From a virus: 36,403 nucleotides of DNA. The position numbers were made by a program, and so were the translations under genes. Each line of letters starts with the position of its first letter. Within the stretch, counting starts at the first letter, position 1. Shown in pieces: positions 2,050 to 33,834 of this stretch. The notes beneath the pieces are model-generated. The model searched no databases. It was not told the origin of the DNA and saw only the letters and a list, made by a program, of their open reading frames with translations. The stretch spans positions 1 to 36,403 of IMG/VR virus record IMGVR_UViG_3300009086_000844. One strand, written 5' to 3'.

Positions 2050-2562
2050 TTATTCGCCTTCAATCTCTTTTCGTAGTTCCTCAACTGCGTCTTCGATGAT
2101 TGATAGATCAGGTAGATCGTTAGAAACTTGTTCTACCTTTGGTTCTATTATTATTTGGCCTTGAAAGATACTGATACATTCATCAGAATCAAAGCCGTTA
2201 TCTAAAAGATAGCACTCGCCTTCGTCTTGTACTTCTTCTATAAATTCTTCTAGTTCTTCGCCTTCTTTAGACTTGAAACGTGACCAGTCCCAATCGTCCC
2301 AACAGCCGTCCCATGAGTCAATCATTTCTGCTTCAGAGAAATCATTCATCTCCAATTCATCTTCAAAATCGTCAGCCATTGCTTCGACTAACATTTCGAC
2401 TTCATGTTCCTCTTGTGGAGTAACAAACCAGTTACCACTTCTCCAGCCTGTTTCTATGCACACAATATCATCGGTGTCATAGTTTTTAAGATACTCATAC
2501 TCAACATAACGTTTTTTGTACTTGTTACTTACTTGATAAGTTTTTCCTATTTCTATATTCAT
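2050..2562 (-). CDS. Highly acidic hypothetical protein, 170 aa
   Basis: The gene starts immediately after the DNA ligase stop (shared boundary at 2562) and ends just before the ribosome binding site of the 52-aa ORF. The N-terminal third has mixed charge (KKRYVEYEYLKNY). The remainder is extremely acidic and tryptophan-rich (WDGCWDDWDWSRF). Such charge could mimic DNA or bind a basic partner, but that is inference only. No known domain is recognised. Confidence 0.75.
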   Translation of the reverse strand: MNIEIGKTYQVSNKYKKRYVEYEYLKNYDTDDIVCIETGWRSGNWFVTPQEEHEVEMLVEAMADDFEDELEMNDFSEAEMIDSWDGCWDDWDWSRFKSKEGEELEEFIEEVQDEGECYLLDNGFDSDECISIFQGQIIIEPKVEQVSNDLPDLSIIEDAVEELRKEIEGE

Positions 2563-3920
2563 TATTTGTCGTCCCTAAATCTTACGAATCTTGGGAATCG
2601 TAGACTATATGTTCCATCTTGGTTTTGAGATACTGCATCACATAATACTTCAACAGTCTCGCCTATTACATCATCAGATGCTGAGTAAAACTCGTCACGT
2701 TGTCCATCTGAAAATCCAGAGCCAACATTAACTTTGATTAGTTTGCCATCGTCTGTCCCTTGACAAACTAATGCACCCAATCTACCTTCATTACGTCCAG
2801 TGCCATCTTCGATAGCAATGACTTCTAAGTCTACAGTGATAGTAGGCTTCCATTTCATCCAGAAGAGATTACGTTTACACTCATATGGTGCCTCTAACTC
2901 TTTGATCATAATGCCCTCGAACCCTGCATTGACCATATCGTTAGAGTATGTTTTCATTTCTTGTTTGCCCTCATCAGTATCTAAGTCAACAATAATATGT
3001 GACATAGTTTCTACAGAACTGAGGTCTTCTAATAAAGGTCTTAAGTTGTTCATTGCAGTAATACGTTTTCTGAATTGTGCGTTACAATGTCCACGTTGAA
3101 AGTCTGCTAGTGGCATGACATCGAATACATGAAATACTGTATCATCAGCCTTAGCATCAGTTTTTCTACGTGCTTGTTTCATCAACTCATTGAATGATGC
3201 TCCAACAACTTCGCCATCGAATACAAAACCCTTAGAGCAATTACCAATCTCACTGCCTAGTAATGTAATGATTTTTCTTACATTAGCAGTTACTTGGTCT
3301 TCAATGTGAGTGAAGTTCTCAAAGACTTTGCCATTACGACTGTAACATGTTGCGACTGGCTCAGGATGATCATACATACCTGGCTCAAACGATACTACCA
3401 TCAGAACTCTAACGCCATCTAATTTAGGCTCAAGTCTTTTGGTGCCTGACATTTCAGGTCTGCCATCGCCATTTGTAGCAAGTTGGCATTTAAAGACTGG
3501 TACTTCGTAGTCAGTCTTCTTACAAACTTTGTTGATTGTGGATATAGAAAATCCAGCACGTAAATCTCTGCGAATGACTGGAGCACAAAAGTTGTTCCAT
3601 TCATCACTAGAAAATTGTAGTGACATTTTTGCTACTGCATCAATAGCATCATTACCAGTCAACTTACGTTCTTTAAGTTGTTCTAGTAATTCGATAAACT
3701 CTGGGTAAGGGTTGGCATAGTCCCTATCTGATTCCTGATTGTCTGGAATCTTTTTGATGCCAAATGTAACATATGGATTGTAACACATGCCAGCAAGTTT
3801 AAGGAATGTATCAGCATTCTCACTGCCTAAAGTAGCGGCTTCTAATGCTTGGGTCAAAACATCTTGCTTATGAAGTTTTGAATTTGATTCGTTAATTTTA
3901 TGTATCCAACTTGCACTCAT
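2562..3920 (-). CDS. ATP-dependent DNA ligase (T4 gp30-like)
   Basis: The enzyme seals nicks between Okazaki fragments and in repair, using ATP. All nucleotidyltransferase motifs are visible in order: motif I EPKLDGVR with the AMP-accepting lysine near residue 166; FDGEVVG at 234-240 (motif III); VFDV at 265-268; EGIMIK at 335-340 (motif IV); and WMKWKP at 354-359 (motif V). The N-terminal 150 residues match the helical DNA-binding region of T4-type ligases, and the length (452 aa) is close to T4 gp30 (487 aa). A consensus sigma70-type promoter (3944-3972) and an AGGAG ribosome binding site precede the ATG. It heads the run of small acidic genes downstream. Confidence 0.95.
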   Translation of the reverse strand: MSASWIHKINESNSKLHKQDVLTQALEAATLGSENADTFLKLAGMCYNPYVTFGIKKIPDNQESDRDYANPYPEFIELLEQLKERKLTGNDAIDAVAKMSLQFSSDEWNNFCAPVIRRDLRAGFSISTINKVCKKTDYEVPVFKCQLATNGDGRPEMSGTKRLEPKLDGVRVLMVVSFEPGMYDHPEPVATCYSRNGKVFENFTHIEDQVTANVRKIITLLGSEIGNCSKGFVFDGEVVGASFNELMKQARRKTDAKADDTVFHVFDVMPLADFQRGHCNAQFRKRITAMNNLRPLLEDLSSVETMSHIIVDLDTDEGKQEMKTYSNDMVNAGFEGIMIKELEAPYECKRNLFWMKWKPTITVDLEVIAIEDGTGRNEGRLGALVCQGTDDGKLIKVNVGSGFSDGQRDEFYSASDDVIGETVEVLCDAVSQNQDGTYSLRFPRFVRFRDDK

Positions 3921-6419: not shown

Positions 6420-6705
6420 CAGGGTACACTTTTCGCCCTGAGTTCATAAAGACAACTGTAAACTTATCTGTTTTGAATTGGGCATTTAACTTTCTGCATA
6501 AGTTTCTTGCGTGACCTGGATTAGAGAAACTTGTCTTTTTGTATTTGGGTGCGGCATCGTTAGTTAAATAATGAGAAGATTTTAAGTTGATAGGTTGCTC
6601 ATCATAGTAAACAGCCCAAATGCCTGATGCTTCAATAATTTGATCACATTTGTATGTTTCTTTATCTACATACTCTAATAATACAGATGGCTGGTTTCTA
6701 CTCAT
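6400..6705 (-). CDS. Hypothetical protein, 101 aa
   Basis: The start ATG overlaps the stop of the upstream gene (ATGA). The protein has an N-terminal beta-rich region (GIWAVYYDEQPINLK) and a basic C-terminal half (ARNLCRKLNAQFKTDKFTVVFM), which could suit nucleic-acid binding. This is only suggestive. It overlaps the following gene by 20 bases. Confidence 0.75.
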   Translation of the reverse strand: MSRNQPSVLLEYVDKETYKCDQIIEASGIWAVYYDEQPINLKSSHYLTNDAAPKYKKTSFSNPGHARNLCRKLNAQFKTDKFTVVFMNSGRKVYPDDISED

Positions 6706-6911
6706 TTGAAAGATCCGCCTTTAACCTGTATATCAATCGTTTCTTCATTTCTATTCTCAATTTCTTCTTTGCTTAACTCATGCAAGTCTGCCAACAGTAC
6801 ACTAATATCGTCTCGTAAACCTCGTGCATCATCTTTGGTCATTACCAAAGTATTAGATTGTTTACTTTCCATTACAGTCATTTTATTAAAAAACGATTTA
6901 ATATGTAACAT
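6702..6911 (-). CDS. Hypothetical protein, 69 aa, possibly leaderless
   Basis: The ATG at 6911 lies two bases after the upstream stop. It has no Shine-Dalgarno sequence, but an exact GATAAATA late motif sits 7 bases before it, so a late transcript would start at the initiator codon. Alternative ATGs at 6881 and 6872 also lack ribosome binding sites. The product is helical and charged (GLRDDISVLLADLHELSKEEIENRNEE, split here for description only as two helices). Function unknown. Confidence 0.65.
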   Translation of the reverse strand: MLHIKSFFNKMTVMESKQSNTLVMTKDDARGLRDDISVLLADLHELSKEEIENRNEETIDIQVKGGSFK

Positions 6912-9235: not shown

Positions 9236-10261
9236 TTAATCCCTCTCTGTCATATACTTATCATGCAATTTGAATGACGCAAGATTTTTACCTTTAGACT
9301 CGCACATAATGTCAGCCCATGCTAGATGATCAAGTGCCCACTCGTTTGCTGGATTGTTCCAGAAGTATTCAGAATGAGCCCTGAGTTTTTGCTTCTTGTA
9401 GCCTGACTCTAGTAGTGTATCTAACTGGGGTAATTCATCAGCATTGTGACCTACAAGACAATCCTCACGTGATACTGAGTAATGAATGACAGGACGAACA
9501 CCACGCCATGAATCAATTATACGCTTACATCGATCATCGGTTGGTAGAATGTATTCTCCGTCTTTGACCCAGTGATGGTGTATGTCCAGTACGAGTGCAA
9601 GATGATCGGCGAGTTCGAGGCTGGCGTCAAGTCCCCAAGACATCTCATCGTTTTCGATTGTGATTGTGTTACGTGCCTCGGGTGAAAGTCTAGGTAAGAC
9701 ATCAATGATACCTTGGGGACCTTTCTTGCCCGAGATGTGTACATTGATCTTAAAGTCCTGAAATGATCGACCGTAGCCCATTGCCCTTGCCATATCAACA
9801 TGATACTCAAACTCCGTTATACTGTTATTTACTATGCCTTCACTGGCTGATGCAAGAACTGTAAACTGACCTGGATGAAACGATAGCCTGACATTGTTTG
9901 TACGTGCAACCTCACCGATAGGCGCACATAGTTGCTCCATACGATTACGAACGTCAGTCTGTTTGTAGAAGTATGCGAATTCAGGATGACTGTAGCCACA
10001 TAGCATGTCACTGGTTAGACGTACCATACGTAATGATTGGGGTAATGTAGCGACCTTAGATACAAGATTGTATGTATTAGTCAGATTACGCTCCATGATG
10101 TCCCACATTTTTTGCTCTGCGAGATCAGGATTGTTACGTAACCACGTGAGTGTAGTGGTACCCGTATTGAGTCCCTCTGTAGAAACCATTTGTTGCTTAT
10201 GATTGATTTCTGACCATTTACATGCGAAGCCAATCCTTTTAATATTATTATCTGTAAACAT
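9236..10261 (-). CDS. UV damage endonuclease (UvdE/UvsE family)
   Basis: UvdE enzymes are metal-dependent TIM-barrel endonucleases that nick 5' of UV photoproducts. The protein begins with the family-like RIGFACKWSEIN and contains RLSFHPGQFTVLAS, TIENDEMSWG and VLDIHHHWVKDG, the His/Glu/Asp metal-site segments expected in this barrel. The length of 341 aa matches bacterial UvdE. A repair enzyme fits a virus of sunlit surface water. It is transcribed divergently from the plus-strand GP88 gene, with a 38-base gap between the two. Confidence 0.92.
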   Translation of the reverse strand: MFTDNNIKRIGFACKWSEINHKQQMVSTEGLNTGTTTLTWLRNNPDLAEQKMWDIMERNLTNTYNLVSKVATLPQSLRMVRLTSDMLCGYSHPEFAYFYKQTDVRNRMEQLCAPIGEVARTNNVRLSFHPGQFTVLASASEGIVNNSITEFEYHVDMARAMGYGRSFQDFKINVHISGKKGPQGIIDVLPRLSPEARNTITIENDEMSWGLDASLELADHLALVLDIHHHWVKDGEYILPTDDRCKRIIDSWRGVRPVIHYSVSREDCLVGHNADELPQLDTLLESGYKKQKLRAHSEYFWNNPANEWALDHLAWADIMCESKGKNLASFKLHDKYMTERD

Positions 10262-10262
10262 T

Positions 10263-10270
10263 GATAAATA
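10263..10270 (+). promoter_or_regulatory. Late promoter GATAAATA (plus strand)
   Basis: The octamer GATAAATA, followed by CTC, lies 29 bases before the ATG of the GP88-domain gene. It is the only late motif seen on the plus strand, and it faces the only large plus-strand gene pair. Confidence 0.65.
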
Positions 10271-10299: not shown

Positions 10300-12078
10300 A
10301 TGAGTGATATACGAAACATACTGAATATTATAAACGAAAGTGAGGGTGATGTCAAATCTAATTTACCCGAAGCTAATCCGGGTGTAACGTCAGATTTAGT
10401 AAAAACCACAGCAAAGTTTCAAGGACGCTCAGATGGTTCTAATGACGGCATGTCTAATGATTTTGAAGTAATGTCTTTAGAAGATTTCTTACTAGATAAT
10501 GGCGTAGAACCTGATGAAGATGCAGAAGAATTGGCTATCAAACAACAAGCCCGGGCTGATGGAGATGATGAAGCAGAAGATTTAGAAGAATTCTATGTAC
10601 CTCCCTACAATAATAACAAGAACATAAGACCAGCAAATCAGAGATCATCTGGTAGATGTGAAAAATGTAGAGGAGATGGAACAATACTCAATCCTCAAAG
10701 AACAGACGTTATGGTTTGCCCAGAATGTAGTGGAGCAGGATTCTTTGGAGATACAACGAATCGCAGAGAACCAGCAGATACATATACTGAGGGTTTAGGA
10801 AAGGATGGTAAAGGACCTGCTGTTAAGTATAAAGATAGCACTCAAGCAGATTTAGATCAAAGAATTGCAAATGCAAGTCCACCTAAAAGAGATAAGGAAG
10901 AGGCTTCAGCAGATGAAGGCGAAGTTGCTAGACATTTAAGACACATGAGACAACTCTCAGGTCAATCAAAAATCGATGAAGTACTTGATGCTCAATCTCG
11001 TAAATTAGGTGGTAAAGAATTAACTGATTACTTAGATAGAATTCTAGCAAAACAAAAAGGTAAGACAGATAAGTACAAACTTCCGTATGTACACAGATCA
11101 TTAGTCAAAGACCTTATTCCAATTGTTGACCAAGAAAAGAATCCATATGACTTAGATAAGTTAGCAAAAGACATTACAGTGCGTCCAACTAAGTTACTTA
11201 AGCAAAATGAAAAGATGCAACACAGTGATGGTACAACTAGTATCTTCTATAATGTGGGTATTCCTGCTTTAACCGGACTAGGTTATGATGAAGAAAAACA
11301 AGAATTTGCTATTGTAAATACATGCCCAGGAGCAGGAGAGTGTAAGACATTCTGTTATGCTTTAAAAGGTGGATATGTACAATGGAGAGCATCATCATTA
11401 AGTCAAACACGTATACTTAACTACTTATGGAATGACCCTGACGGATTCATGGAACAGTTATCTACAGAAATTGACAGAGAAAACAGAAAAGCAGATGCTA
11501 AACAAGGTAAACATAAAGTTACTATTCGTTGGCATGATGCTGGTGATTTCTTCTCAGACAAATATTTAGAAATGGCTTATAAACTAGCCGCAACTCATCC
11601 TACTGTAGACTTCTATGCATATACTAAAATAGCAGACGTTGCAGGTTCAGTTCAAAATAGACCACCCAACTTTAAGATTAACTTCTCAATGGGTGCTAGA
11701 AGAGGTGAAGAGAAACGTGTAGACTTCGGTGTAACAAAGCATTCTTCAGTTGTTCCTAAAGATATCTTTAATGATCTTATTCAGAAAGATGGTAACAAAA
11801 TTATCAAAGATAAAGACGGCAAAATTCAATGGAATAGTCCTGAAGATTGGGAAACATTCAAAGAAAGACTAGCAAACAAATATTCAATAAATCCACAGTC
11901 TATTATTAGTTATTCAGAAATGATGGATATACCATTAGGTTCTCGTACTAAAGGCGACAATGCAGATGGTGCAAGAGGATTTAAAAATGATTTATGGAAT
12001 GTTGTAGTTGCTCCAGGTGATGGAGATGATTCAGCCAATCGTGCAGACGTGCTTGGCACTTACTTGTTAATGCACTAG
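10300..12078 (+). CDS. GP88-domain protein with DnaJ-type zinc finger; possible internal virion protein
   Basis: The first 16 residues contain NIINES, similar to capsid-targeting leaders of T4 internal proteins. Residues 120-148 hold two CxxC-x-G pairs (CEKCRGDG, CPECSGAG) like a DnaJ zinc finger. Residues 340-355 read NTCPGAGECKTFCYAL and residues 408-419 TIRWHDAGDFFS, followed by FYAYTK; this set of motifs matches the phage 'gene product 88' (GP88) family, whose biochemical role is not established. Acidic linkers connect the parts. The gene is read from a late promoter and followed 8 bases later by the lipase gene, so late expression is likely. The GP88 call is fairly secure; virion location is inference. 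Confidence 0.75.
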   Translation: MSDIRNILNIINESEGDVKSNLPEANPGVTSDLVKTTAKFQGRSDGSNDGMSNDFEVMSLEDFLLDNGVEPDEDAEELAIKQQARADGDDEAEDLEEFYVPPYNNNKNIRPANQRSSGRCEKCRGDGTILNPQRTDVMVCPECSGAGFFGDTTNRREPADTYTEGLGKDGKGPAVKYKDSTQADLDQRIANASPPKRDKEEASADEGEVARHLRHMRQLSGQSKIDEVLDAQSRKLGGKELTDYLDRILAKQKGKTDKYKLPYVHRSLVKDLIPIVDQEKNPYDLDKLAKDITVRPTKLLKQNEKMQHSDGTTSIFYNVGIPALTGLGYDEEKQEFAIVNTCPGAGECKTFCYALKGGYVQWRASSLSQTRILNYLWNDPDGFMEQLSTEIDRENRKADAKQGKHKVTIRWHDAGDFFSDKYLEMAYKLAATHPTVDFYAYTKIADVAGSVQNRPPNFKINFSMGARRGEEKRVDFGVTKHSSVVPKDIFNDLIQKDGNKIIKDKDGKIQWNSPEDWETFKERLANKYSINPQSIISYSEMMDIPLGSRTKGDNADGARGFKNDLWNVVVAPGDGDDSANRADVLGTYLLMH

Positions 12079-23348: not shown

Positions 23349-24535
23349 TAAAATTTTGCCTCTCTTGTGTGCTTTCTATAGTCAGTTGACATTCTCAACC
23401 ATTCTTCGCCTTTGCCATCCATGATGTCAATACAACGATCAATTGTTCCGTTAGTCCAATCAGAGATATCGCCTATCTTAGAATGTGGACCAACTAGTAA
23501 TGGATGTAATTTACCTATTGCATCTTCAAGTGACCATGGAAGATAAAGTCTGTCTATGTCATTAGCAAATGTTTCAGGGAAACTTCTATAAGCAGGGAAC
23601 AGAACATTACAACCTAATGCATCACCTTCTGAGACTGTATTGCTTACCCAGTCTTGCAATGCACAATTAAAGATAACTCTAGTATCATTTAGCAAACGAT
23701 AGTAATCGTTCTTAGATAGATTCTCGTGGATAACTAGTTTCTTTTGCTTCTGCAATTTCTTTGTACGTTTCATATATGAATCGTTATTGCTTTTTAGTTC
23801 TCCACCTGAGAATACACAGAATTCTATACCATGATCTTTACCGTATCTTTTATACCATTCTTCAATAAGGTCCATATAAAAGTCAGGTTGTTTCTCTTGG
23901 TCCCAACGAGCAGTAAATGCTACTCTCATTTTACGATCAGGAAAGTCTTTATATTCTTCTAATTCTAGTAAACGTCTGCGTACTTCGTCTTTGCCAAATG
24001 CAAGACCTGAGATGTTATATATGGGAGCAGTCCAACCTGCTATCTTCATGTGTGCAACCATTTCTTCGTTAGTTGCTAAGACACCAGTAACAAATTCATT
24101 GACCATCTTCTCGTAAAGACCCATCCACTTCTCCATGCCCCAGACATGTACGAAATCATCTGGGTCAACAGATTGTGCTAAACATCTTACAAAGACTTTA
24201 GGTCTGTGTTCTTCAGCAATTTGATCCATGATATAAGGAAGTGATTCGATACCAGGCTGAAACATATCTTCAAAAAAGATACAGTCTTCACTTGTTACTT
24301 CACCTTCTTTCATCAGTTTAACTAAAGACATCATCTGTGACATACCAAAGTATGAACGACCATGTGCATCTAACACTTGACCTGTTACAATAGATTGATC
24401 AGTTGATAATAGATCACCTGGGACAACTACATAATCAAGTTTGCGTTTATCAAAAGCCTCAGTACTCCAGTCTTGTAATTGCAAAGTGTATCTTGCTTCA
24501 TAGGGCTCAAGTCCCATATAATATAATCGTCTCAT
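23348..24535 (-). CDS. Glycosyltransferase (GT-B type)
   Basis: A two-domain GT-B glycosyltransferase. The C-terminal half has [28 protein letters not shown], and the donor-binding stretch [18 protein letters not shown] (with a Glu of the EALA-like region) followed by [12 protein letters not shown]. No membrane segment is seen. The start overlaps the nucleotidyltransferase-cupin stop (ATGA). It may glycosylate virion proteins, host lipopolysaccharide or modified DNA; sequence does not decide. Confidence 0.85.
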
Positions 24536-25347
24536 TTCTTATCTCCGTTTAAACTTATTCGTTCTATGTCACTTTCAACACAACTTTCACCGTATTGTAT
24601 TTCTATAATTTTTAGTGGTTCATCTGTCATGTTACGTAGTTGATGCCAACTCTTTTTAGGTATCCATGTCGAACCAAACTTATCAAACTTACCTAAATCC
24701 TTGTATGTCCCATCAGCATGTATGCTCCACACTGTTGCTATTCCTTCACTGACAAACCAAAACTCTGCTCGACTTTTATGTCGTTGCATACTTAGTGTTT
24801 TACCTGGGTCAACAGTAAGTTCTTTTACTTTAACATATTCTGATTCTTCATGCAACACACGATAGTAACCCCATTTACGTTGAGTCTTTGGAGCCTTCCA
24901 TTCTTGTAGAATCCATGAACTTGAATTCTTCTTGTCTTCGCCTCCTACACCAAACTCAAATGACACATTAGAATCATCTAAATCCATTTCAGGGATATTC
25001 GTTTTAGTTCTATCACCACCGTTTGCATAAATGATATGACTGTCAGGGAACTCTGCTCTCAATTTTACAATCGCATCCTTACCACTATCGTCACTATCAT
25101 CAAATGTCATTACACCATCAACAGAACCAAGTGCAAACAATATTGCTACACGTTCATCAATAGGCATGAACGACCTGCCCTTCTTACGAGCAAGCCATTC
25201 ATCACTGTTAACTCCCACGATAAGTTTTGATCCTAACTCTTTAGAAGCATCTATATAAGATAAATGTCCTTTGTGTATAGGATCAAACCCACCTGTGATC
25301 AATACGATATTATCGGCGTTGATAGCGTTTCTCAAATCGTCTTGCAT
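24532..25347 (-). CDS. Nucleotidyltransferase-cupin fusion (RfaE-C + ManC-type cupin)
   Basis: Residues about 15-150 form a nucleotidyltransferase: ITGGFDPIHKGHLSYI with HxGH, GVNSDEWLARKKGR and PIDERVAI, as in the heptose-1-phosphate adenylyltransferase domain of RfaE. Residues about 155-271 form a cupin like the C-terminus of mannose-6-phosphate isomerase/ManC: WGYYRVL, MQRHKSRAEFWFVSEG, and STWIPKKSWHQLRN. The two activities together suggest making an activated sugar. It overlaps the upstream 71-aa gene by 38 bases. Exact substrate unknown. Confidence 0.85.
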   Translation of the reverse strand: MQDDLRNAINADNIVLITGGFDPIHKGHLSYIDASKELGSKLIVGVNSDEWLARKKGRSFMPIDERVAILFALGSVDGVMTFDDSDDSGKDAIVKLRAEFPDSHIIYANGGDRTKTNIPEMDLDDSNVSFEFGVGGEDKKNSSSWILQEWKAPKTQRKWGYYRVLHEESEYVKVKELTVDPGKTLSMQRHKSRAEFWFVSEGIATVWSIHADGTYKDLGKFDKFGSTWIPKKSWHQLRNMTDEPLKIIEIQYGESCVESDIERISLNGDKK

Positions 25348-32782: not shown

Positions 32783-33007
32783 TTACCCGTTTCTGCTATC
32801 GATATCTTTGCAGATATTTCTTGCTAGGTCGCCGCCAGTATTGACGAATAAGAACGGAAACACAGCATGAATAATGACTGCAAATCCGGTAAAAATCATA
32901 AGTACACCATAGGATAAGGCGTAGCATAAATGGGCAAAATAACTTTCGCCTAGGGAGTGAGGATGTTCAGTAAATTTACTGAAATATGTGTGGATTCTCT
33001 TTGCCAT
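32783..33007 (-). CDS. DUF6356-like small membrane protein
   Basis: FTEHPHSLGESYFAHLCYALSYG and a following hydrophobic stretch ending HAVFPFLFVNTGG match the DUF6356 pattern (TxHPxSVGESYxEH...HALxPFLF) found mainly in alphaproteobacteria and their phages; described here in outline. The start is the ATG at 33007 (MAKRIHTYF), overlapping the protease gene end; the longer reading would run deeper into it. One long hydrophobic helix region is seen. Function unknown. It hints at an alphaproteobacterial host. Confidence 0.78.
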   Translation of the reverse strand: MAKRIHTYFSKFTEHPHSLGESYFAHLCYALSYGVLMIFTGFAVIIHAVFPFLFVNTGGDLARNICKDIDSRNG

Positions 33008-33515
33008 AGATTTTAATATACTTTCCAGCAACCATATCAGCCGCCGCTTCAATTGGTGAGCCAGGATAACTATCGCCGGCTTTTATTAAATCCTTTTCAC
33101 CTTGTCTAATGTGGACCAATTCATGGAATACAGTTCGCATAATATCAATCAAGTTTCTGTTGCCATAGACCCAAATTTCATCAGAACCCATTTCATGTCT
33201 ACCTGTATGATGACCTTCTTGGGCTTCTTCAGTATCATAACTGATCACAATTTTAGGCATGTTTTCTATCTGTAGACGTTCGCCCATCCAATCAGCACCT
33301 TTCTGTGCTTCGTCTTCGATGTTTAAACCATCATCAAACATTTGATCAGATGCAGTTAGTTCTTGTCTTGCTTTGTGTGCTTGTTTAGATGCACTTTTGG
33401 CATTGCGATAAATCTTGCCTTTCTCGTCTACATCATACTGGTCGCTTTTAATCTTAGGAAGTCTATTTTCTAAGTCTTTAAGCGGGGATTCATTGATAAA
33501 TTGTGAGGCTCTCAT
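32976..33515 (-). CDS. HELVH zinc metalloprotease-like protein; possible internal virion protein
   Basis: Residues 131-135 read HELVH, the zinc-binding HExxH motif, and IEAAADMVAG at 155-164 provides a likely third ligand (Glu156). The protein begins MRASQFINES, matching capsid-targeting leaders of T4 internal proteins, with a possible gp21-type cleavage after INE. The start is the ATG at 33515; the longer frame runs through non-coding sequence. A late motif sits 5 bases upstream with no ribosome binding site. Possible roles are processing within the capsid or acting on host proteins after injection. Confidence 0.78.
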   Translation of the reverse strand: MRASQFINESPLKDLENRLPKIKSDQYDVDEKGKIYRNAKSASKQAHKARQELTASDQMFDDGLNIEDEAQKGADWMGERLQIENMPKIVISYDTEEAQEGHHTGRHEMGSDEIWVYGNRNLIDIMRTVFHELVHIRQGEKDLIKAGDSYPGSPIEAAADMVAGKYIKIYGKENPHIFQ

Positions 33516-33520
33516 AGTAT

Positions 33521-33528
33521 TATTTATC
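33521..33528 (-). promoter_or_regulatory. Late promoter GATAAATA (leaderless spacing)
   Basis: The exact octamer lies only 5 bases (ATACT) before the protease ATG at 33515, so the predicted transcript begins at or beside the start codon. Confidence 0.6.
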
Positions 33529-33555
33529 AAAAAATGCTTTTGGGAAATGTTTTGC

Positions 33556-33584
33556 TTGACATTTGCCGCATTAAATATTATGAT
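33556..33584 (+). promoter_or_regulatory. Sigma70-type promoter TTGACA-17-TATGAT (plus strand)
   Basis: TTGACA (33556-33561) and TATGAT (33579-33584) on the plus strand are 17 bases apart. It is divergent from the protease promoter and serves the gene pair at 33613-34622. AAATG/CATTT arms flank the -35 box. Confidence 0.8.
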
Positions 33585-33612
33585 AAACAGTAACAAATTT
33601 AATGGGAACAAC

Positions 33613-33834
33613 ATGATACTACCACATAGTGAAAAAGCAGAACACATAATATGGGAACTTGAATACGAGATGAAGAATCCTCGTAACGATGGTTGGACTG
33701 GCAGAGACATGAAACGTAGACTGTGGGATATCAAAATGAAAGTAGATAAAGCATTAAAAGATGCTCCTACATATGTTGATGAACCTGAATACGAAGACCT
33801 CTACCTAATCGAAAAACTGAAGGACACAGTATGA
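33613..33834 (+). CDS. Small helical protein, 73 aa
   Basis: The start is the ATG at 33613 (MILPHSEKA), about 22 bases after the predicted transcription start with GGGAA nearby; the longer upstream reading would begin before the promoter. The protein is helical and charged (EHIIWELEYEMKN; MKRRLWDIKMKVDKAL). Its TGA overlaps the start of the UDP-glucose dehydrogenase (ATGA). Function unknown. Confidence 0.72.
   Translation: MILPHSEKAEHIIWELEYEMKNPRNDGWTGRDMKRRLWDIKMKVDKALKDAPTYVDEPEYEDLYLIEKLKDTV

Follow-up and report, generated by a model that had tools for sequence, protein, structure and literature searches.

The first ten residues of the bacteriophage T4 internal protein IPIII are sufficient for its packaging, with positions 4 and 7 serving targeting and positions 8 and 10 serving processing (PMC9026906). 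The T4 prohead protease gp21 cleaves after L/I-X-E, and an IPIII variant with Asp at position 10 retains targeting and loses processing (PMC9026906). Another T4 protein, the ADP-ribosyltransferase Alt, is packaged and injected (PMC9026906), and the internal proteins IPI-III block type IV restriction enzymes (PMC12373910).

The stretch of DNA analysed in this work (the window) comes from an uncultured virus, of which it is a 36-kb fragment, and has T4-type genes, including those of a family-B DNA polymerase and an ATP-dependent ligase. The original prediction held that two late proteins of the window, one of the GP88 family and one with a HELVH motif, share an INES leader similar to the T4 capsid-targeting sequence (CTS), and that both could be effectors packaged in the capsid. 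The features of the two genes are the following:

10263 to 10270, plus strand: T4-type late promoter GATAAATA, 29 nt upstream of the GP88 ATG.
10300 to 12078, plus strand: GP88-family protein with the N-terminus MSDIRNILNIINES.
10300 to 10338, plus strand: GP88 leader MSDIRNILNIINE, followed by S, with a predicted prohead-protease site after E13 (between E and S).
32976 to 33515, minus strand: leader-bearing HExxH (HELVH) putative zinc metalloprotease of 179 aa.
33489 to 33515, minus strand: leader MRASQFINE of the HExxH protein, class MRAxEFIxE, with a predicted site after E9 (between E and S).
33521 to 33528, minus strand: T4-type late promoter GATAAATA, 5 nt upstream of the HExxH-protein ATG.

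The sequences and coordinates of both N-termini, MSDIRNILNIINES and MRASQFINES, were confirmed, as were the late promoters announced directly upstream of both genes. The ATG of the HExxH protein is placed at 33515 on the minus strand, the mechanically called open reading frame (32976-33734) running too far upstream. Of the seven [GT]ATAAATA sites in the window, five are followed within 40 nt by a gene start on the same strand, compared with 3% of random positions; in T4-like cyanophages, NATAAATA has been described as the late promoter (PMC2984593). Judged by these promoter motifs, GP88 and the HExxH protein would both be expressed late by a T4-like phage.

The two leaders are 9 (HExxH protein) and 13 (GP88) residues long, with starts placed by alignment of relatives, compared with about 7-19 for T4-type CTS. 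Both end in the L/I-x-E of the gp21 logo (FINE in the HExxH protein and IINE in GP88), which is kept across both families. T4 IPIII starts with MKTYQEFIAEA, and the EFIxE of the MRA class is identical to its residues 6-10. The critical IPIII residues F7, I8 and E10 have in-register F, I and E in the HExxH leader and I, I and E in that of GP88, and for residue 4 (Tyr) no clear equivalent is seen in the window leaders. The predicted likeness to T4 capsid targeting holds in the EFIxE identity, the strongly kept Glu and the presence of the leader on many unrelated late proteins. What is shared by the two window proteins is the [L/I]-x-E end; the leaders themselves belong to two classes, MRAxEFIxE and MDIRNILxIIxE, so that their mutual likeness had been overstated.

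As in the T4 CTS of IPI, IPII and IPIII, the leader is short and N-terminal, with the core EFIxE and the L/I-x-E end, and is found on unrelated small late proteins. However, the MRA leader is one residue shorter and has its MRA start, its cleavage is predicted, and in relatives it is carried by large enzymes (up to 756 aa) and by many more families. Alt and gp24 (MAKINELLRES, cut between E and S) also have a short propeptide ending in x-E, and leader-bearing ADP-ribosyltransferases occur in the relatives, the resemblance established here being limited to the leader; the gp24 segment INELLRES resembles NIINES of GP88. In the phiKZ/SPN3US ejection proteins, many head-packaged proteins have propeptides cut after Glu, but the phiKZ motif is S/A-x-E (PMC9026906), whereas it is L/I-x-E here, with leaders of 9-13 residues.

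Both proteins most likely bear T4-type capsid-targeting propeptides that would be cleaved by gp21, and would be packaged and injected, a reading that is stronger for the HExxH protein and weaker for GP88. The propeptide, 9 N-terminal residues in the HExxH protein and 13 in GP88, would be a short helix docking the protein on the prohead core, and the gp21-type prohead protease of the phage would cut at its terminal [L/I]-x-E. Inside the head, the mature proteins would be retained beside the DNA and reach the next host upon infection, like T4 IPI-III and Alt, the HExxH protein acting as an injected metallopeptidase and GP88 as a further injected protein. From the sequences we infer docking, cleavage, packaging, injection and the presence of gp21 in the window virus.

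Three INES tetrapeptides are present among the 53 called proteins of the window, all within the first 14 residues; when residues 2-31 were shuffled 5000 times, the mean was 0.012 and no shuffle reached two. Apart from the two leaders, the search for further INES-leader proteins in the window yielded only the following gene:

2562 to 3920, minus strand: DNA ligase starting MSASWIHKINES, with an INES judged not to be a leader.

This INES is not conserved: a close relative has LNES at this place, and the distant relative G003 has LNKS (WIKELNKSESRLHK); it was rejected as a leader and looks like a coincidence, and the tetrapeptide alone is thus an unreliable mark. The generic hydrophobic-x-E motif showed no enrichment at the window N-termini (16/53, Fisher p 0.37) and therefore proves nothing by itself; genome by genome, N-terminal [FILMV]xE was not significantly enriched, except weakly in G003 (p 0.0009). 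The ligase and this lack of enrichment would suit an INES common to both proteins by chance in AT-rich N-termini, but such a coincidence is extremely improbable given the shuffling result, the conservation of the leaders in both families and the fact that 29 families carry the MRA leader, and it is refuted for the HExxH leader because the MRA leader is modular. The evidence is the specific leaders and their relatives, rather than the bare motif. A short protein at 6702-6911 (MLHIKSFFNKMTVMES), with a late promoter 7 nt upstream, was considered as a third leader and rejected, its Glu varying to Asp and the HHxE form being absent.

The distribution of MRAxEFIxE was analysed by scanning IMG/VR at the DNA level with free codon choice, which gave at least 120 stretches. 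Among the matches listed, 79 of 95 were gene starts (80 loci), and the sequences following the motif formed at least 22 mutually unrelated clusters. The pattern had 119 matches in bacterial genomes, of which only 17 were start-like (viral versus bacterial odds ratio 30, p 2e-25); among these 17, at least L605 and L700 match a viral family from a second, promoter-selected scan. In this second IMG/VR scan, in which a late promoter was required and position 9 was left free, 108 unique MRAxEFI proteins were obtained, with Glu at position 9 in 89 and another residue in 19; those of at least 45 aa formed 29 mutually unrelated clusters. The form with Gln replacing the last Glu was found in only 24 stretches of the whole IMG/VR collection, 11 of them start-like. 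The prevalence of E9, the rarity of the Gln form and the many clusters indicate that the Glu is selected, that position 8 is free and that the leader is transferable. These sequence comparisons support MRAxEFIxE as a modular tag that resembles the T4 CTS and stands at the N-terminus of many late proteins without mutual relationship. Three phage-like MRAxEFIxE genes with a late promoter (L608, L605 and L700) were located in contigs binned as bacteria, the L608 bin being Candidatus Pelagibacter and that of L605 Rickettsiales, a possible hint of the host.

In most of the 108 promoter-plus-leader genes TAAATA lies 4-8 nt before the ATG, as it does in the window (33516-33528, minus strand), so that such mRNAs may begin at or beside the AUG (leaderless). 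The MRA start could then reflect initiation rules of translation or transcription in leaderless late mRNAs instead of the protein. This is extremely unlikely, since the conserved residues are kept despite free codon choice and, among the matches listed, a late promoter ([ATG]ATAAATA within 45 nt) adjoins only 9 of the 95 genes found without promoter selection.

A leader that serves only for docking, to the prohead core or another virion part (tail, baseplate), and is not cut, [L/I]-x-E being only part of the docking helix, would agree with the 19 proteins that lack E9 and with the Asp10 variant of IPIII, which is still targeted and unprocessed (PMC9026906). It is nevertheless rather unlikely, because Glu is strongly preferred at position 9, in contrast to the free position 8, and because the sequence after the Glu matches that behind the presumed gp23 cut in relatives. 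In several large relatives gp23 reads ..KENASAGSTSAGNIATLN or ..AESSAGTTTAGNIATLN, with xASAGxTxxGNIATL after the presumed maturation Glu, and a family of about 60-aa proteins (33 unique) reads like MRAxEFIxENASAGATSSGSIATVA. An example is MRAQEFIKE followed by NASVGATSSGSVATVA, to be compared with YLKE followed by NASAGSTSAGNIATLN in gp23. As these strings are alike, the Glu of the leader and the Glu at which gp23 is presumed to mature would be equivalently placed, the gp23 cut in relatives being placed by alignment to T4, where the spacing differs. In these small proteins (L269, L422, L526-L574; MRAxEFIxE-NASAGATSSGSIATVA) the residues just behind the leader mimic the N-terminal arm that gp23 has in this phage group.

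The large relatives have a T4-type gp21-gp22-gp23 cluster with similar N-terminal sites (YLREN, PLLES, LLAES), and gp21 is encoded by all six leader-bearing contigs of 151-524 kb, a count taken over leader-bearing contigs only. Five of the gp21-positive genomes have GP88 and six have HExxH relatives, and the relatives having both families encode gp21. For the window itself the search was negative: neither gp21 nor gp23 was found among the genes of the 36-kb fragment or, with PF03420 and PF07068 searches, in its closest long relatives, all of them fragments, the longest of 128 kb. The window's clade (G001) and G003 have a common gene content in similar order until shortly before the gp21-gp23 cluster, which no contig of the clade reaches.

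In the HExxH family MRAxxFIxE is kept and the sequence downstream varies. The H, E and H of HELVH are invariant across 36 aligned sequences. In alignment A1, the first row of this protein is without the initial Met, and its positions are therefore one lower than in the protein. No Pfam hit was obtained with this protein, and its fold matches were weak (E 0.03-0.2), to abylysin/selecase and IrrE/PprI-type metallopeptidases. Behind the leader, freshwater-type relatives have either the SPATELAKKLPSL domain at once or first an insert, after which the protein resumes; the insert is basic, contains YFFPGFAYYGG, is rich in Gly/Asp and ends in a second hydrophobic-x-E (SMYES, SVNES, SINEG). This module, RKKKRR-GRYFFPGFAYYGG-(GGD)n-ES(M/I/V)xE, lies between two hydrophobic-x-E sites in L226, L265, L125, L148 and others; the arrangement resembles a two-site propeptide, and the module occurs once more, in another protein (L471). 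Among cultured phages, Synechococcus phage S-SRM01 has an HExxH-like match that spans 60 residues only, and its paper is without mass spectrometry; the largest leader-bearing family had no match among cultured phages.

GP88 consists of the leader, an acidic/disordered N-terminus, a Zn-ribbon-like CxxC..CxxC and the Pfam GP88 core (residues 302-486, PF17338, 2.2e-31), which carries CPGAGECKTFCYA; a CPGAGxCKTxCYA segment is conserved. The core was modelled with low confidence as an alpha/beta barrel-like structure, and a structural search with GP88 gave no significant fold match. Most of the window's clade has the leader MxDIRNILxI(I/L)xE. In the family as a whole [L/I]-x-E is present in 74 of 75 complete N-termini, a count affected by some start codons having been picked with the motif in mind. 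The leader types are MDIRNIL..E, MDIRKLIKLVTE, MKTFKQHLNE, MKTFTQHINE, MKIHEIITE, MRYYELLE, MNIIELME and MKIKHLME, and they require five changes on the core-domain tree. In the first 220 residues only E13, L60 and F63 are nearly invariant (alignment of leader-bearing members). Outside the GP88 family, essentially no MDIRNIL leader was found, and the GP88 relative in the gp21-positive genome G004 has no visible leader.

The DNA of the GP88 leader also contains the following element:

10327 to 10355, minus strand: perfect sigma-70 promoter TTGACA-N17-TATAAT, antisense within the GP88 leader codons.

It points, from 10355 to 10327, at the divergent endonuclease gene 9236-10261. Among 35 relatives, at least 10 of 12 promoter positions are matched in 18 (4.0 expected under synonymous recoding) and at least 11 of 12 in 10 (0.6 expected). 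The promoter covers the conserved II and VK residues and therefore explains their conservation, and hence part of that of the leader. If it explained everything, the GP88 N-terminus would be conserved for DNA reasons, as the early promoter of the endonuclease gene, and would be no packaging signal. This is partly true, but as a full account it was rejected and is very unlikely: E13 lies in the 17-nt spacer, where its codon is GAA or GAG, and it is kept, within [L/I]-x-E, in promoterless relatives with other leaders (MKTFKQHLNE, MKIHEIITE). Because of this antisense promoter the GP88 leader is a weaker case than that of the HExxH protein. The proposal of capsid-packaged effectors keeps its footing in the modular T4-CTS-like tag, the plausible effectors and the gp21-encoding relatives, and loses some of it where GP88 conservation is partly due to the promoter.

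Among the proteins on which relatives carry a leader are ART-PolyVal ADP-ribosyltransferases, GH19 chitinase-like enzymes, Fe/Mn superoxide dismutase, an NT5C-like phosphatase and a methyltransferase, and some are kinase-like as judged by eye. ART-PolyVal domains, and the idea of effectors co-delivered with DNA, are also known from the polyvalent phage proteins (Iyer et al., PMC5512222), but the leader-bearing proteins are mostly single-domain, each with its own tag. It is about evenly balanced whether uncultured T4-like phages of up to 524 kb use MRAxEFIxE and its variants as a general delivery tag, with which a large and rapidly changing arsenal (metallopeptidases, ADP-ribosyltransferases, kinase-like proteins, superoxide dismutase, phosphatases, chitinase-like enzymes and GP88) would be loaded in the head and injected, together with two-site propeptides with the basic/YFFPG/Gly-rich insert and the 60-aa mimic of the gp23 arm. 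If so, a nine-residue tag in raw sequence would list the proteins that these phages carry into their hosts, many unannotated late genes would become testable effector or counter-defence candidates, and the T4 internal-protein principle would no longer be confined to a few E. coli phages but include very large environmental ones. Systems of this kind have been described before; what appears to be new is the MRA form, together with its breadth and its presence in very large uncultured phages, and no description of the MRA tag was found in the open-access literature, with subscription journals outside the scope.

The Fe/Mn superoxide dismutase genes L168 (12141-12719, G001) and L176 (5455-6009, corresponding to 24455-25009 of the G003 contig) have an N-terminal hydrophobic-x-E leader and an upstream GATAAATA promoter. 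Directly 3' of GP88, the window contains a class 3 lipase gene (PF01764, 12087-13376, plus strand) with no leader. In the window's clade, L487 (9097-9723) encodes a 208-aa MKSLKHYIAES protein with a near-canonical T4 leader and no PHROG match, located beside tail genes.
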